DNA of 64,000 nucleotides, from positions 558,001 through 622,000 of the forward strand of contig NZ_CP049888.1 in assembly GCF_011304355.1 (NCBI RefSeq). The letters are read 5' to 3'. Under the pieces are notes generated by a model that saw nothing but the letters and a program-made list of their open reading frames with translations, had not been told where the DNA came from and ran no database searches. Position numbers and translations under genes: made by a program. The stretch comes from Weissella coleopterorum. GTDB taxonomy: Bacteria > Bacillota > Bacilli > Lactobacillales > Lactobacillaceae. Of the stretch, positions 20,321 to 62,753 are shown in pieces (within the stretch, counting starts at the first letter, position 1; each line of letters opens with the position of its first letter).

Positions 20321-20460
20321 GAGCATCACAGGGTAGAAGTTTATGCGTCAAGGGTCACAAAAACGGAATGTGGGTTGTGATCGAAAAATACATTTATTGA
20401 TATTTTTAGAATTCATGAATGTATTTGCGATATAAACTTCGCATTCACTGACATCAGTGA
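20321..20460 (+). promoter_or_regulatory. Tetrahydrofolate (THF-I/folT) riboswitch
   Basis: In order: GGTAGA, the P2 strand AGTTTAT, GCGTCAAG, the P3 strand GGTCACAA, a loop with GGAATGTGGG, the closing strand TTGTGATC, CGAA, an AT-rich hairpin, GCGATATAAACT closing P2, and TCGCATTC. These match the conserved GGAG-AGUAGA, GCGUUAAGU, AAUGGGAUG, CGAA and UUGCAUCC blocks of the class that senses folates. CACTG-ACAT-CAGTG at 20446-20459 overlaps the 3' side of P1 and may compete with it. Confidence 0.85.
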
Positions 20461-20489
20461 AACCCTCCATTAATTAAGGAGGTGTTTTC
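20460..20489 (+). promoter_or_regulatory. Shine-Dalgarno sequestering hairpin of folT
   Basis: CCTCC at 20464-20468 can pair with the GGAGG SD at 20478-20482, with AAAC and GTTT extending the stem. This suggests translational output for the riboswitch. No intrinsic terminator is seen before folT. Confidence 0.65.
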
Positions 20490-20491
20490 AA

Positions 20492-21049
20492 ATGAAGACA
20501 TTAGAATATTTTAGAGCGCCCAAGCTGCGTACGCAGACATTGGCATTGTTAGGAGTCTTAATGGCTCTTGAGATTATTATTTCACGGTTCACCATTGGGA
20601 ATTCGTTTTTTCAAATTGGATTTACGTTTATTACCGGTGGATTGATCGCTAAATGGTATGGTCCCATGTGGGGGATTCCAGTTGCATTTTTAATTGATTT
20701 TTTAACGAATTTATTGGGAGGGCAACCATATATAATCGCCTTTGCTTTGGTTAAATTATTATCAGCGCTGATCTTTGGTTATTCTTACTATCAAAAACAA
20801 AACCTCTCATGGTGGCGTTTGATAGTTACGATTGGAGTACAGCTATTATTAGCAAATGTGATTTTAAATACCATTTTGTTGGGGATGTATAATTTTATTC
20901 CAGTCCATTCGGTACAAGCGGCGTTAACATCGCCAATTGTTTGGGCTCGTGCTCTAAAAAGTCTCATTATGTGGCCAGTTGAAGTTATTATTAGTTATTT
21001 AATTTTTAATAATAAGCAATTAATGAAATTGGCGGAACAAATTTTTTGA
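20492..21049 (+). CDS. folT: Folate-specific ECF transporter S component
   Basis: Encodes 185 residues with about six hydrophobic helices. ALEIIISRFTIGNSFFQIGFTF and LIAKWYGPMWGIPVAFLIDFLTNLLGG are typical of FolT S components. It binds folate and docks with the shared EcfA-EcfA'-EcfT module, which is not in this window. The riboswitch upstream independently supports folate specificity. A later folC (62934) acts on the imported folate. Confidence 0.9.
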   Translation: MKTLEYFRAPKLRTQTLALLGVLMALEIIISRFTIGNSFFQIGFTFITGGLIAKWYGPMWGIPVAFLIDFLTNLLGGQPYIIAFALVKLLSALIFGYSYYQKQNLSWWRLIVTIGVQLLLANVILNTILLGMYNFIPVHSVQAALTSPIVWARALKSLIMWPVEVIISYLIFNNKQLMKLAEQIF

Positions 21050-21061
21050 TAAAAGATTAAC

Positions 21062-21090
21062 TTGCGTTAGTGTATTATTTTTGCTAGAAT
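21062..21090 (+). promoter_or_regulatory. Promoter of the tryptophan transporter leader
   Basis: TTGCGT, a 17-base spacer, then TAGAAT. Transcription would start near 21097, about 25 bases before the leader peptide. Confidence 0.65.
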
Positions 21091-21121
21091 TAATTTTATT
21101 ACTTATAGATGGAGAAATAAA

Positions 21122-21166
21122 ATGCAGATTAATAATTTACAATTAAATGGTTGGTGGCGTTTCTAA
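21122..21166 (+). CDS. Tryptophan-rich leader peptide (MQINNLQLNGWWRF)
   Basis: A 14-codon reading frame with a good SD (GGAGA, six bases upstream) and adjacent TGG TGG codons at 21152-21157, followed by Arg, Phe and TAA. It lies between a promoter and an intrinsic terminator in front of a tryptophan-type ABC transporter. Those are the hallmarks of a ribosome-mediated attenuation peptide. The role is inferred; the peptide is too short for homology. Confidence 0.75.
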   Translation: MQINNLQLNGWWRF

Positions 21167-21293
21167 CGCGACCGAATTGCATTAATTTTGCAGATTCGGA
21201 CGTGCACTTTTCTAGTGCAACCGAATCTGTGGATATATTTCTCGAAAATTGGAGAAGTCTGCCTGGGTTTGTTTGCCTAGGTAGACTTTTTTT
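21149..21293 (+). promoter_or_regulatory. Candidate transcription attenuator with alternative hairpins
   Basis: The Trp-codon segment can fold on itself (GCGTT 21157-21161 with AACGC 21165-21169; GGT 21149 with ACC 21171). CCGAATTGC (21172-21180) can pair with GCAGATTCGG (21190-21199). CAGATTCGG can instead pair with CCGAATCTG (21221-21229), extended by TGCACT/AGTGCA. These last two are mutually exclusive. GCAGATT (21190-21196) also complements the 5' arm of the terminator. Which fold permits read-through is not resolved. Confidence 0.65.
21254..21293 (+). terminator. Attenuator terminator before trpX
   Basis: AGTCTGCCTGGG (21256-21267) pairs with CCTAGGTAGACT (21276-21287), a 12-base stem with two G-T pairs, followed by seven Ts. 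It lies 35 bases before the trpX start. Confidence 0.85.
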
Positions 21294-21327
21294 GTTGAAA
21301 TTCAAACTTACGAAATGGGATATTCTT

Positions 21328-22317
21328 ATGAATATAAAAATAAAATTAACAATTATCGCTATGACTCTCTTTTTAGGCGGAGCAGCCGTTAGAGCTAGTT
21401 TCACAGCTGATGCAAAGAAAGAAGTTAAAACAGTCGGTGTGCTGCAATTTATGACCCATCCGGCATTACATCAAATTTACACTGGGATTGAAGCTGGTTT
21501 GGCAGAGGAAGGATACCACGTGGGTGATAATCTCAAAATCGATTTTAAAAATGCCCAAGGAGACCAGTCAAATTTAAAAACGATGGCTACGCGATTTGAT
21601 AGTGAGAATGTGGACTTAGCAGTGGGAATTGCTACGCCAGCAGCGATTAGTTTAGCAAACACTTTACAAAAGCAACCGGTTATTTTTGCGGGTTCAACCA
21701 ATCCAATTGGATCGAAGTTAGTTACGAATTATGAACACCCGGTGGGAAATGTGACCGGAGTTTTAGATCAAGCACCACTTAAAGCACAAATAAGTATGAT
21801 GAAAGAAATGTTACCGAATTTAAAAACGGTGGGAGTTTTGTATACGTCTTCGGATGATTCCGCCACGACGGAAGCCCTTAAATTTAAAAAATTGGCCAAA
21901 CAAAATGGTTTGAAAACAAAGGTGGCTTCGGTTGCATCTTCCAATGATATTAACCAAACCGTATTGCAATTAATTAGTAATCACCAAGTCGATGCATTGT
22001 TTATTCCAACTGATAATAGTATTGCTGGAGCTATGAATACAGTGATTAAAAATACTGATGCCGCTAAAATCCCTGTTTTTCCAACCGTTGATACGATGGT
22101 TAAACAAGGTGGGCTAGCAGCAGAAGCAATTAATCAAAAGGAAATTGGGATTAAAACCGGACGAATGATGGGCCGAATTTTGTCAGGAAAAACTGTCAAA
22201 AGTCAGTCGGTTGAATTTATGCAAGAAGGGCATTTAGTTATTAATCAAGAGCAGGCGGATCGATTGGGCATTTCAGTTCCAAAAGAATTATCACAGCGTG
22301 CTAGATTTATTCATTAA
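21328..22317 (+). CDS. trpX: Tryptophan-type ABC transporter substrate-binding protein
   Basis: Encodes 329 residues from the ATG at 21328; an upstream in-frame extension would begin inside the leader and is rejected. An N-terminal hydrophobic segment (about 5-23) lacks a lipobox Cys. TVGVLQFMTHPALHQIYTGIEAGLAEEGY, VGIATPAAISLA, GNVTGVLDQAP and LFIPTDNSIAGAM match the ABC.X4 substrate-binding family, which includes streptococcal TrpX. The Trp-codon leader upstream is independent support for tryptophan as ligand. Ligand choice inside the family varies, so this remains inference. Confidence 0.8.
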   Translation: MNIKIKLTIIAMTLFLGGAAVRASFTADAKKEVKTVGVLQFMTHPALHQIYTGIEAGLAEEGYHVGDNLKIDFKNAQGDQSNLKTMATRFDSENVDLAVGIATPAAISLANTLQKQPVIFAGSTNPIGSKLVTNYEHPVGNVTGVLDQAPLKAQISMMKEMLPNLKTVGVLYTSSDDSATTEALKFKKLAKQNGLKTKVASVASSNDINQTVLQLISNHQVDALFIPTDNSIAGAMNTVIKNTDAAKIPVFPTVDTMVKQGGLAAEAINQKEIGIKTGRMMGRILSGKTVKSQSVEFMQEGHLVINQEQADRLGISVPKELSQRARFIH

Positions 22318-22330
22318 AAGGAGTCAGAAA

Positions 22331-23227
22331 ATGGGAGTTATTATATCAGCAATTGGACAGGGGATCATTTGGTCTCTACTTGGGATTGGACTATATTTAT
22401 CATTTCGAATATTAAACTTTCCGGATATGACGGTTGAAGGAACTTTTCCACTTGGTGCGGCGGTATCAGTTACCTTGGTGACTCAAGGGGTCAATCCGGT
22501 TCTAGCGATTATTATTGCCGGTATCATCGGTGGAGTAGCTGGATTGATAACTGGCTTGTTGTACACTAAGGGGCAAATTCCCATTCTGTTAGCTGGAATT
22601 TTAACGATGACCGCAACATATTCTATTAATTTAAGAATTATGGGACAGGCAAATAAGTCATTATTAGGAGTAAAAACCTTGTTTAATAACCAATTTGTTA
22701 ATTGGTTACCTGATAATTTCCCAACAATTGGGGTTGGAATTGTTATTGTAATCGTTATTGTGGCCAGTGTGGCATGGTTTTTACAAACTGAATTAGGTCA
22801 GGCGTTTATTGCTACAGGTGATAACCAGACAATGGCTTGGGCTTTGGGTATTAATTCTGATGCTATGGTGACCCTAGGTTTGATTATCTCAAATGCACTT
22901 ATTGCGCTGGGCGGGGCTTTGGTCGCTCAAAATAATGGGTTTGCAGATGTCAATATGGGAATCGGAATTATTGTAGTAGCTTTAGCTTCGATTATCATTG
23001 GAGAAGTAGTTTATACGGATAAATTAACACTAACTGAACGTTTAATTACAGTGGTGATCGGTTCAATCTTGTATCGATTTGTGCTAGTGGCAGTGTTGGC
23101 ATTTGGATTTGATGCCAACGATTTAAATCTCTTTAGTGCCGTGATTTTAGGGTTGGCCTTATTACTACCTAAGTTTCGACATTCATTAAATATTGCAAAG
23201 TTATTTCCACAGAAGGGAGCAAAGTGA
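22331..23227 (+). CDS. trpY: Tryptophan-type ABC transporter permease
   Basis: Encodes 298 residues from the ATG at 22331 (AAAGGAG seven bases upstream). It has about eight hydrophobic helices, with GLYLSFRILNFPDMTVEGTF and TKGQIPILLAGILTMTATYSINLRIMG typical of the BPD_transp_2-type permease that partners TrpX-like proteins. Its TGA overlaps the ATG of the ATPase gene (TGATG as ATGA-type junction), a sign of translational coupling. Confidence 0.85.
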   Translation: MGVIISAIGQGIIWSLLGIGLYLSFRILNFPDMTVEGTFPLGAAVSVTLVTQGVNPVLAIIIAGIIGGVAGLITGLLYTKGQIPILLAGILTMTATYSINLRIMGQANKSLLGVKTLFNNQFVNWLPDNFPTIGVGIVIVIVIVASVAWFLQTELGQAFIATGDNQTMAWALGINSDAMVTLGLIISNALIALGGALVAQNNGFADVNMGIGIIVVALASIIIGEVVYTDKLTLTERLITVVIGSILYRFVLVAVLAFGFDANDLNLFSAVILGLALLLPKFRHSLNIAKLFPQKGAK

Positions 23228-24006
23228 TGACACAAATTAAGGACCCCATTTTGGAATTGATTGATGCAACTGTAGTTGTTAATCAGGGCACTTTAAATGA
23301 AAAAATAATTTTAGACCATGTTAATTTTAAGATGCAGGCTGGTGATTTTGTCACCGTTTTAGGCTCGAATGGAGCTGGTAAATCGACGTTTTTAAATGTA
23401 ATCGCTGGTTCATTGCCACTCACTACTGGACAAATTTTGGTGAACGGTCAAGATGTAACGAAATTAAATGAAATTAAACGCACACATTTAATTGCGCGGG
23501 TTTTTCAGGATCCCAAAATGGGAACGGCACCCCGTATGACTGTTTCAGAAAATTTATTATTAGCCAAAAGGCGGGGACAAAGGCATCGACTGACTTCTCG
23601 AAAATTAACATCGCAAGTACAAAATCAGTTTAAAACTTTATTAGATCAAATGGGGAATGGATTGGGACAACGGTTGAATGTGGCGACTGGTGATCTGTCT
23701 GGTGGACAAAGACAGGCGTTAAGCTTTGTTATGGCTACTATCACTAAACCCGCGGTACTATTACTTGATGAACATACGGCCGCTTTGGATCCAAAGACTA
23801 GTGCGCAACTATTAAAAGTGACGGACGAACGAATTAAGGCGGACAAACTAACGGCATTAATGATTACTCATAATTTGGAAGATGCCCTAAGTTATGGGAA
23901 TCGTTTAATTATAATTAATGCAGGGCAAATCGAATTTGAAGCAAAAGATCAAAGCAAAAACAAATTGACGTTAAATGATCTTTTGGAGCATTTTAAACGT
24001 TACTAA
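23227..24006 (+). CDS. trpZ: Tryptophan-type ABC transporter ATP-binding protein
   Basis: Encodes 259 residues. Walker A is GSNGAGKST, the signature LSGGQRQALSF, and Walker B VLLLDEHTAALDP; the switch His lies in MITHNLED. The GTG three bases earlier is possible, but the ATG overlapping the trpY stop has the better SD distance (GGGAG). It energises the transporter and ends the three-gene operon. Confidence 0.9.
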   Translation: MTQIKDPILELIDATVVVNQGTLNEKIILDHVNFKMQAGDFVTVLGSNGAGKSTFLNVIAGSLPLTTGQILVNGQDVTKLNEIKRTHLIARVFQDPKMGTAPRMTVSENLLLAKRRGQRHRLTSRKLTSQVQNQFKTLLDQMGNGLGQRLNVATGDLSGGQRQALSFVMATITKPAVLLLDEHTAALDPKTSAQLLKVTDERIKADKLTALMITHNLEDALSYGNRLIIINAGQIEFEAKDQSKNKLTLNDLLEHFKRY

Positions 24007-59796: not shown

Positions 59797-59802
59797 TATG
59801 AA

Positions 59803-60050
59803 ATAGTTACGTCCTGGAGGAGTAGTTTAAAATGATATGTTTAGAGAGTGATTATTTGCTGCAAAGTCACCATATCAATTAAACCAAGGTAGTCAGGGCA
59901 CTGAATTAATGAATGATTGAATGTAGTTAATTCCGTTTTCCGCGTTAAGGAACGATGAGATAGAATAAAAATTTATTCTAAATCAGGTGGTACCGTGATT
60001 ATTTCGCCCTGATGAATCAGTATTGATTCGTCGGGGCTTTTTTATTTTAA
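59803..60050 (+). promoter_or_regulatory. T-box leader specific for tRNA-Val (specifier GTA)
   Basis: Stem I closes with CCTG (59813) and CAGG (59894). Its internal loop carries GGAGTA on the 5' side and the specifier GTA (59889-59891) on the 3' side, then helices GTTTAA/TTAAAC and GATATG/CATATC. The T-box AGGTGGTACCGTG is at 59985-59997; TGGT would pair with the ACCA end of uncharged tRNA-Val. The terminator stem GCCCTGATGAATCA/TGATTCGTCGGGGC with T6 ends near 60046. Uncharged tRNA-Val should favour read-through into valS. Confidence 0.9.
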
Positions 60051-60095
60051 TGTCCGTAATTGATAAATAGCGAATAAAGAAACGGAGAAAATTAA

Positions 60096-62753
60096 ATGCG
60101 TGAAATTGAAATGCCAGGAAAATATGACCCAACGGCTGTAGAAGCGGGTCGTTATGATAAGTGGTTGCAGGATAAGCGTTTTGCACCATCTGAAAATAAG
60201 AAGGCGCGACCTTACTCAATTGTTATCCCTCCGCCAAATGTTACTGGGAAGCTGCATTTAGGACATGCATGGGACACGACTTTGCAAGACATTATCATTC
60301 GTCAAAAGCGGATGCAGGGATTTGATACAGTATGGATTCCAGGAATGGACCACGCTGGGATTGCGACCCAAGCTAAGGTTGAACAACGTTTAGCTGAGCA
60401 AAATATTTCACGCTATGATTTAGGGCGTGAGAAATTTGTGGATCAAGTTTGGGATTGGAAAAATGAATATGCAAGCACTATTAAATCACAATGGGGTAAG
60501 CTAGGTCTTTCGTTAGATTACGATCGAGAACGATTTACATTAGATGATGGGCTTTCAGCAGCAGTTAAAAAAGTCTTTGTAAAACTATATGAAAAAGATC
60601 TGATTTATCGTGGGGAATACATTATTAACTGGGATCCAAAGGCCCGCACCGCACTCTCGGATATTGAAGTGATTTATAAAGATATCGAAGGTGCTTTCTA
60701 TCATGTTAAGTATCCATTTACAGATGGAACGACTTTAAATGGTAAGGATTATATTGAAATTGCTACAACGCGTCCAGAAACTATGTTTGGGGATGTGGCT
60801 GTGGCGGTTAATCCCAAGGATGAACGTTATCAAGATATTATTGGTAAAACTATTAAAGTACCCCTAGTGGAACGCGAAATTCCAGTGATTGCTGATGAAT
60901 ATGTTGAAATGGAATTTGGAACAGGTATGGTGAAAATTACTCCTGCGCATGATCCAAATGACTTTGAAGTTGGAAATCGGCATAATTTGGAACGGATTAA
61001 CACTATGAACGAAGATGGTTCCATGAATGCCAGGGCTGGAAAGTACGATGGTATGGACCGCGATGTAGCCCGTAAGGCCATTGTAAAGGATTTGAATGTT
61101 GCGGGTTGGATGATAGAAGTGGAGCCATATACGCATTCAGTTGGGCATTCAGAACGAACGGGCGTACCTGTTGAAGCGCGACTTTCAACTCAGTGGTTTG
61201 TCAAGATGAAACCTTTAGCTGAGCAAGCTTTAGCAATGCAAAAAACTGACGATCGAGTAGATTTTTATCCACCACGTTTTGAAAATACGTTTACTAGTTG
61301 GATGGAAAATATTCATGATTGGGTCATTTCAAGACAATTATGGTGGGGACATCAAATTCCAGCTTGGTATCACAAAGAAACGGGTGAGATCTACGTTGGC
61401 GAGACTGCCCCTGCGGATGTAGAAAATTGGGAGCAAGAAACGGATGTTTTAGATACCTGGTTCTCATCTGGTTTGTGGCCATTTTCAACTATGGGGTGGC
61501 CTGATACCGAGGCCCCCGACTTCAAACGTTATTTCCCAACCAATACATTGGTAACAGGTTACGATATCATTTTCTTCTGGGTGGCGCGGATGATGTTCCA
61601 ATCCAAAGAATTTACTGGTCGACGTCCCTTCCAAAATGTCTTAATTCATGGGTTGATTCGTGATGAACAGGGGCGTAAAATGTCGAAATCATTGGGTAAT
61701 GGGATTGATCCAATGGATGTTATTGAGAAATATGGGGCCGATGCGTTGCGCTGGTTCTTAGCCAACGGTTCAACTCCAGGATTAGATGTTCGATTCTCAT
61801 ATACTAAAATGGATGCAGCTTGGAATTTTATCAATAAGATTTGGAATGCTTCTAGATATGTCATCATGAATCTAGACGATGACACAGATGTTAAATTGCC
61901 AAACGTCGAAGAGCGGACCCTCGCAGATAAATGGATTTTGTCACGTTTAAATCAAACTATTGCAACTGTAAGTCAAAACTTTGATAAATTTGAATTTGGT
62001 GAAGCTGGCCGGTCACTTTATAACTTTATCTGGAACGATTTTGCAGATTGGTATATTGAAATGACTAAAGAGACGTTAAACGGGTCTGATGTTCAAGCGA
62101 AGCAGAATGTGCAACAAGTATTAGCTTATGTTTTGGACCAAACACTGCGTTTGCTCCATCCGATCATGCCATTCGTTACGGAAGAAATTTGGTTAACGAT
62201 GCCCCACGAAGGTGAGTCATTAACTAATGCGGCTTTCCCAGTTTTCAATGCCGAATTAACTGATGCGAAAGCTGAGTCTGACTTTAAGCGGCTTGTGGAT
62301 TTGATCACTGCAGTCCGTAATATTCGTACGGAGGCCAATGCGCCAATGTCAACTATGATTGATGTCATGGTACAAACCGATGACAGTGAATTAATGCAGA
62401 TTATTGATGAAAATTCAGATTATATCAATCGATTTGTGAAACCTAAGCAATTAATCGTGAATGTAGACGTCAATGCGCCAAAATTGGCAATGACGAAAGT
62501 CATTACTGGAGCTGAGGTAATTGTGCCGCTAGCAGAACTGATTAATTTAGACGATGAGATTGTTCGTTTGGAAACTGAGGTCAAGAAATTTCAAGGTGAG
62601 GTAAAGCGAGCTCAAGGTAAGTTGAAGAATGAAAAATTCGTCAATTCGGCACCTGAAAAAGTTGTTTTGGCTGAACGTGAAAAACTGGCTGATTGGGAAC
62701 ATAAGTTTGCAACGACCAATGAACGTTTAATAGAGTTAAAAGCGGCAAAGTAA
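60096..62753 (+). CDS. valS: Valyl-tRNA synthetase
   Basis: Encodes 885 residues, a class I synthetase. The HIGH motif is in [14 protein letters not shown] (near 45-58) and KMSKS in [11 protein letters not shown] (near 527). An editing (CP1) domain carries [17 protein letters not shown]. The C-terminal coiled coil (about 820-885) binds tRNA. GGAGAAA precedes the ATG. The T-box specifier GTA agrees with the gene. Confidence 0.97.

Follow-up and report, generated by a model that had tools for sequence, protein, structure and literature searches.

The trpXYZ operon of Weissella coleopterorum is preceded by a leader which contains a very short open reading frame (ORF) with two adjacent tryptophan codons, overlapping hairpins and a terminator. 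The question raised by this locus is what senses tryptophan there, and how the signal is converted into termination or read-through. The earlier note on this DNA had proposed a Trp leader-peptide attenuator and had left the read-through logic unresolved. The comparison of sequences makes it very likely that transcription of trpXYZ is attenuated by way of a ribosome that translates a Trp leader peptide, that the element is a diverged relative of the RNA family RF04312 (the trpB motif), and that RF04312 itself is a leader-peptide scaffold set by codons. A shortage of tryptophan is probably perceived when the ribosome stalls on the tiny ORF. The argument is based on the ORF, the mutually exclusive helices, the terminator, the covariation of helices 1:2, 2:3 and 4:5, the association with particular genes and the re-specification of the codons.

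Organization of the leader and of the operon

The window is the whole stretch of DNA that was analysed, 64,000 nucleotides of a genome (labelled G000) which consists of one contig of 1.62 Mb. The segments of the leader RNA are numbered 0 to 5, and a helix is named after the two segments that pair. The features are the following.

21062..21090, + strand: putative promoter, TTGCGT-17-TAGAAT, its -10 preceded by TG; a weak match (from the sequence)
21111..21117, + strand: Shine-Dalgarno-like GGAGAAA of the leader ORF (from the sequence)
21122..21166, + strand: leader ORF MQINNLQLNGWWRF, 14 codons and a stop, Trp codons 11 and 12 at 21152-21157 (from the sequence and genus conservation)
21151..21175, + strand: predicted helix 0:1, the Trp codons paired with bases around and after the stop codon when there is no ribosome (folding)
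21167..21204, + strand: predicted helix 1:2, free to form with a ribosome at the Trp codons and hindered with a ribosome at the stop (folding; the counterpart covaries in RF04312 relatives)
21190..21230, + strand: predicted helix 2:3, P1 of the trpB motif in relatives, which leaves the terminator free (folding, genus alignment)
21225..21268, + strand: helix 3:4, which may act as the antiterminator; its pairing is weak in the window and stronger in many relatives (folding, pair counts)
21254..21293, + strand: helix 4:5, intrinsic terminator with T-run (folding, genus alignment)
21328..22317, + strand: trpX, tryptophan ABC transporter substrate-binding protein (NF041285, 424 bits for a cut-off of 390; PF04392)
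22298..23227, + strand: trpY-type permease (PF02653)
23224..24006, + strand: trpZ-type ATPase (PF00005)

The 14-codon peptide with adjacent Trp codons which had been noticed before the transporter is indeed present, together with its Shine-Dalgarno-like sequence. The pattern of Trp codons has five matches in this genome, the leader among them. Two mutually exclusive hairpins had also been described, and both are found: helices 1:2 and 2:3 share segment 2 (about 21190-21207). The terminator is there with its T-run (21287-21293), but its stem has 15 pairs (21254-21268 with 21275-21289) instead of the 12 given before. The promoter fared less well: the site exists, but the match is weak and the promoter scan did not list it (10 sites in the region for 11.8 expected, i.e., no excess). 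The terminator filter of the scan does not list the leader terminator.

The region 21100-21310 folds with an energy of -75.7 kcal/mol, compared to a mean of -42.5 for shuffled sequences (z = -8.3; none of 200 shuffles was as good). The predicted helix energies are -15.9 for 1:2, -23.6 for 2:3, -10.6 for 3:4 and -24.5 for 4:5.

At gathering thresholds, the Rfam matches in the window are a THF riboswitch, a distant T-box and two tRNAs, and none of them falls within the trp leader itself. The absence of a T-box, which the earlier note had pointed out, is confirmed by the lack of any RF00230 match upstream of trpX. The THF riboswitch (RF01831, 63.3 bits) precedes a folate-family ECF S component, and both lie directly upstream of the trp leader (20327-21049); RF01831 is likewise found in two other loci of the genus (L003 and L005). 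The T-box (RF00230, 114 bits, 59800-60014) precedes a long ORF that looks by eye like a valyl-tRNA synthetase (region 59800-62753).

Conservation in the genus

TrpX is encoded in all 28 genomes of the genus, and an ORF with adjacent Trp codons (WW) is found in 27 of them. Among the 27 orthologous trpX loci that were read with their upstream region, 26 have this leader ORF. The exception, G020 (L007), has kept trpX and a terminator-like hairpin and has no leader ORF; the covariance model R1 described below matches it only with E = 0.0099. In the 28th genome, G007, whose contig is seemingly scrambled, the WW ORF is present and is followed by another sequence. The TrpX paralogs L030 and L031 have no WW leader. 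No T-box was found in the six TrpX loci of the genus that were scanned (L002, L003, L005, L007, L008 and L023). The contig search for TrpX gave two distant loci, which were left out of the analysis.

The leaders encode 21 distinct peptides. Asparagine stands two positions before the first Trp and arginine follows the second Trp in 21 of 21, and the arginine is followed by one further codon and the stop. All these leaders contain an ATG that allows an ORF of 14 codons up to the stop, a length which the automatic choice of the ORF tried first.

The pairs were counted in the alignment of 20 distinct leaders. For the terminator set, 94.3% of the positions are paired and 15 of 23 pairs have changed on both sides (0/500 shuffles). 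For the antiterminator set, the values are 81.7% and 13 of 29 pairs (8/500 shuffles). The slid controls reach at most 50.3%. Further pair types in the antiterminator set are not above the shuffles (230/500); its strands are shared with 2:3. Aligning the leaders of relatives, as had been suggested, therefore gave WW codons in 27 of 28 genomes, hairpins that covary and a terminator that is kept in the aligned leaders.

Relatives in the family

R1, a covariance model built from the 20 distinct leaders of the genus, has matches at E <= 0.01 in 98 of 397 genomes of the family, 26 of which belong to the genus. A TrpX homologue is encoded downstream in 37 of the 40 best places outside the genus. The peptides of these relatives often end with QLN-x-R/S-W-Q-S-R. 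The first Trp is followed by Gln in 27 of 33 distinct non-genus peptides of this type, and by a second Trp in six. If the counting of codons is all that matters, a leader in which the Trp codons are not adjacent may respond only weakly.

The R1 matches L088 and L101 were judged to be chance matches and were not counted as Trp leaders. L090 was not counted either, because no Trp ORF was found there and it does not precede TrpX. This trp-leader-like element (G129 C3:290938-291081) lies before ORFs, one of which is 28% identical to TrpZ, and it is perhaps a copy that has been re-tuned inside the family.

Relation to the trpB motif

The region of the window (L002, G000) has no match to RF04312 at E <= 1, and the gathering cut-off of 59 bits is not reached. 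RF04312 matches the hairpin part of the relatives L084, L096, L082 and L107 below the cut-off, L084 with 52.1 of 59 bits. R1 and RF04312 coincide at the same places in four genomes (G029, G035, G102 and G300), which amounts to homology through intermediates. As a correction to the earlier note, the element is a diverged relative of RF04312, a family whose function was previously left open. The element of the window would work as leader-peptide attenuators do; it has RF04312 as a relative but is not a scoring member of that family.

RF04312 matches occur in 236 of 395 genomes of the order Lactobacillales at E <= 0.01, and 59 are over the cut-off. The places examined here are the best 111 by E value (<= 2.8e-6) minus the one in G029, already counted as L079, where a Trp leader is present too. 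At each of the 110 places, an ORF preceded by a Shine-Dalgarno sequence, with Trp near its end, terminates before the motif. Shuffles give 5.2 such cases, and 26 of 308 other places in these loci have one. A strict W pattern is found at 105 of the 110 places, for which 0.1 are expected; only 1 of the 308 comparison places has it. A second Trp stands three residues after the first in 81 of 101 distinct peptides. According to BLAST, the protein encoded downstream is TrpX in 99 cases, TrpB in 6 (two of which were confirmed by TIGR00263) and neither in 5. At one of these five, L109, a gene for a group II intron reverse transcriptase begins at most 450 bases after the Trp-leader element.

In the RF04312 leaders, segment 1 coincides with the stop codon or follows it closely, and its partner is segment 2 of the motif. 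A W-x-x-W leader is present at 87 of the 110 places; covariation was examined in the 56 of these sequences that were left after removal of near-copies. Helix 1:2, which is missing from the Rfam model, has 11 pairs; 97.7% of 610 cells are paired and five pairs have changed on both sides. There are 43 double-changed cells, compared to 11 in shuffled sequences (0/300 as high), and slid versions of the helix stay below 48%. Helix 4:5 also covaries (9 of 10 pairs). Helix 3:4 is mostly invariant and shows little covariation beyond the shuffles (28/300 as high). The column count returned no 2:3 pairs, probably because the segment columns misfit some rows; the support for 2:3 is the genus alignment and the covariation reported by the authors of the trpB motif. 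A pairing of the end of the peptide with the tail of segment 3 (0:3) was seen by eye in other genera, but the column count in RF04312 gave no 0:3 helix and this candidate was discarded.

Leaders with other codons in another class

Searching RF04312 over the phylum gave matches in 4 of 398 genomes. Two of them (L140 and L141) are chance-like. A third one, L139 in G1077, is outside the class of the window and led to another class. In the order of G1077, RF04312 has matches at E <= 0.001 in 40 of 194 genomes, all of them below the cut-off. The sample studied consists of the best 50 of 59 listed places.

A leader which is preceded by a Shine-Dalgarno sequence and contains runs or clusters of Phe, Tyr, Leu or His codons is found at 50 of these 50 places. 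A fixed run pattern is present at 49 of 50, compared to 1.7 expected and to 5 of 190 other places. Eight leaders are of the His type and eight of the Leu type; the rest contain Phe, Tyr or both, some with Val. Trp does not occur in the last 14 codons of any of the 50.

The codons vary with the gene behind the leader. The eight His leaders all precede hisS or hisZ: seven hisS over the cut-off and one hisZ-like gene below it (L222). Another 31 leaders precede members of one protein cluster, the sodium-dependent (NSS) transporter family (12 of the 31 were tested for the family). On a quick tree of these transporters, the codon type changes 3 times, compared to 13.6 times when the labels are shuffled (0/200), and the Leu type makes up one side of a branch; near-copies favour such a result and two long branches meet in this tree. 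The other genes encode BrnQ-type carriers (five by cluster, two tested), BPD_transp_2 permeases (four), a TrpX-like protein below the cut-off (one) and a short ORF without a family (L260). In L240, L241, L242 and L250, two terminator-like hairpins in series are seen by eye after the motif.

The search for these places made no use of the way in which codon and gene agree, and this agreement is taken as the strongest argument for a translated sensor. In the main explanation proposed here, the amino-acid specificity of RF04312 is best read, from these sequences, as residing in the codons of the upstream ORF, outside the motif model. It is likely that RF04312 is a Gram-positive codon-programmable attenuator, whose input (Trp, Phe, Tyr, His or Leu) is re-specified with the gene behind it, a Leu-Asn dipeptide in the leader being perhaps a nascent-chain pause element.

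A proposed mechanism

The helices suggest a scheme of the his type, in which 0:1, 2:3 and the terminator 4:5 would alternate with 1:2 and the antiterminator 3:4. When Trp-tRNA is short, the ribosome would wait at codons 11 and 12 and cover segment 0. Segment 2 would then pair with segment 1, which directly follows the stop codon. Segment 3 would be free to pair with segment 4, the terminator would be blocked and the transporter would be made. With plenty of Trp-tRNA, the ribosome would move on to the stop codon and cover segment 1, so that 2:3 and the terminator can form. An RNA that carries no ribosome would adopt 0:1, 2:3 and 4:5, which leads to termination. The ribosome as the sensor, the direction of the regulation, the use of 3:4 and the kinetics are what we infer in this scheme. 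As far as the anatomy is concerned, the read-through logic is thereby settled through two further helices, 0:1 and 3:4.

The earlier note had remarked that segment 2 can also pair with the 5' arm of the terminator. Such a 2:4 duplex is possible (-8.9), but at most 0.7 pairs are expected in any state in the 26 leaders of the genus, and it was rejected as a read-through device.

For these 26 leaders, some of which are near-identical, the RNA as far as the 5' arm of the terminator was folded with a ribosome at different positions. Without a ribosome, the mean numbers of pairs are 7.5 for 0:1 and 13.6 for 2:3. With a ribosome at the first Trp codon, they are 9.1 for 1:2, 5.0 for 2:3 and 4.6 for 3:4, and with a ribosome at the stop codon, 13.5 for 2:3 and 1.7 for 3:4. 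The mean of the genus thus shifts as expected for the positions of the ribosome, but the window itself does not at equilibrium: in 8 of 26 leaders, that of the window included, 2:3 outweighs 1:2 even when the ribosome is at the first Trp. As long as segment 3 of the window has not been made, 1:2 has 12.9 pairs with the ribosome at Trp, 2.8 with the ribosome at the stop and 12.9 without a ribosome. Once segment 3 is out, the equilibrium prefers 2:3 in every ribosome state, and the effect of the ribosome position is only transient in the window. Read-through in the window would need a kinetically trapped 1:2, since equilibrium folding leaves the switch incomplete there. The window may hold a kinetics-dependent or weakly inducible version of the device, which is a real weakness of the scheme.

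The same idea was examined by walking the ribosome along each leader and following the sequestration of the terminator arm; the terminators were chosen automatically, and for L027 at least the choice fell on a second hairpin that lies beyond the first. In the 110 RF04312 leaders, a ribosome at the first Trp gives a clearly higher sequestration (0.77) than one at the stop (0.38) or the RNA without a ribosome (0.42; 103 up, 3 down, 4 ties). The change is modest in the genus (0.65 vs 0.55; 17 up, 5 down, 4 ties). The R1 relatives give 23 up, 7 down and 7 ties, and the leaders of the other class 35 up, 8 down and 7 ties. In the control, which covers RF04312, the other class and the genus, the stretch from the stop to the terminator was shuffled three times in every second locus. 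It gives 49 up and 69 down for RF04312 and 16 up and 8 down for the genus; the mean differences become -0.016 (RF04312), -0.007 (other class) and 0.014 (genus).

The initial reading as a Trp leader-peptide attenuator is hence supported by the WW codons, the covarying hairpins, the terminator, the TrpX equivalog and the mean shift in folding.

Other explanations

Narunsky et al. have presented the trpB motif as a strong riboswitch candidate with more than 900 representatives in Firmicutes and Fusobacteria; the main text of the paper does not contain the phrase "leader peptide", and in it the authors state that a classic attenuator cannot be ruled out (Narunsky et al. 2024, PMC11109978). A true riboswitch, with hairpins that are themselves the binding site of a metabolite and short ORFs that play no part, would agree with the conserved sequence of the hairpins. 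The ORFs seem too regular for that, however: one with the expected codons, preceded by a Shine-Dalgarno sequence, is found at 110 of 110 and 49 of 50 places (5.2 and 1.7 in shuffles), and its codons vary with the downstream gene. The published reading now appears very improbable.

An arrest of the TnaC kind is given the same low chance. The nascent peptide would sense free tryptophan and stall the ribosome near the stop codon, and termination would occur at high Trp. The peptides do contain a recurrent feature which could serve such a purpose. A dipeptide [LVIMF]-N is found at most six residues upstream of the first regulatory codon, mostly 3-4 before it, in 19 of 21 distinct peptides of the genus, 32 of 33 of the R1 relatives, 56 of 101 of RF04312 and 35 of 49 of the other class. 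Its first codon varies, and adjacent Trp codons are missing from many leaders, both of which suit an arrest peptide. On the other hand, Asn is AAT in 139 of 142 cases, which may indicate a constraint on the RNA or on the codon, and by eye the dipeptide is missing from that position in 6 of 8 His leaders. The runs of Phe, Tyr, His or Leu that replace Trp in relatives fit codon starvation.

Control of trpXYZ by a T-box or by a protein, the ORF being a by-product, is the least plausible of all: a T-box is known on trpX of Streptococcus suis (available text of PMC9382623) and the window has a real one elsewhere, but none is found in its trpX leader or in those of the six scanned loci, and the WW ORF is conserved.

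Significance

The codon-set attenuator remains the preferred reading. If it is true, it provides a mechanism for a widespread riboswitch candidate that has no ligand (more than 900 representatives according to the text of PMC11109978), and a hunt for a ligand with the bare RF04312 RNA would consequently be misdirected. A textbook enteric system would govern tryptophan uptake in many lactic acid bacteria, and one RNA scaffold would have been re-tuned to at least five amino acids. Exchanging the codons alone should then switch the amino acid which is sensed, a prediction that is directly testable. The leader codons would also help to predict the substrates of poorly assigned amino-acid transporters.

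Among the open PMC papers listed by the searches, none was seen, by title and abstract, to describe a Trp leader peptide as the regulator of trpXYZ in lactic acid bacteria or to assign a leader ORF to the trpB motif, although either may have been noticed elsewhere. Within these listed papers, the phrase "trpB motif" was seen only in PMC11109978. Leader-peptide attenuation as such is already known, Firmicutes included, as the available texts of PMC5864092, PMC2965389 and PMC9413887 attest. The layout of the leader is that of ribosome-mediated trp attenuation, as the earlier note had claimed, but its statement that this layout is known mainly from Gram-negative bacteria has to be amended in view of these precedents.

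Comparison with known systems

The textbook trp attenuator is a four-segment scheme. The enteric his attenuator has a six-segment logic with alternating helices, and leaders bound by TRAP contain repeated GAG/UAG triplets. The E. coli leader trpL (NC_000913; L271 339-383) and the ORF of the window (21122-21166) both have 14 codons and a Trp pair within a common GWWR core, which is found in trpL and in MQINNLQLNGWWRF. This likeness may have arisen by convergence, given that R/S-W-Q-S-R is what many relatives from other genera have. The E. coli attenuator controls biosynthesis whereas a transporter is controlled here, and the number of alternative helices is larger here. The order of six segments with alternating helices is that of the enteric his attenuator, from which the element of the window differs by its Trp codons and its transporter.

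Among Firmicutes, His leader attenuators have been predicted before hisS/hisZ or his operons (available texts of PMC2965389 and PMC9413887). They would also be cases of Gram-positive leader-peptide attenuation, with His codons as in part of the leaders described here. Listeria rli60 is an experimentally tested ribosome-mediated attenuator in a Firmicute (available text of PMC5864092); it differs by its branched-chain amino-acid codons and its biosynthetic operon. The trpXYZ operon of S. suis is the same type of target, but it is controlled by a Trp T-box, a tRNA-binding riboswitch, and induced by low Trp; "leader peptide" does not occur in the available text of PMC9382623.

The trpB motif itself is also among the closest known systems. 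RF04312 has in common with the element of the window segments 2-3 (its P1), segments 4-5 (the terminator) and the context of a TrpX-type transporter or of TrpB. Its model starts after the ORF; the present description extends it by the leader ORF, by segment 1 and by helix 1:2.
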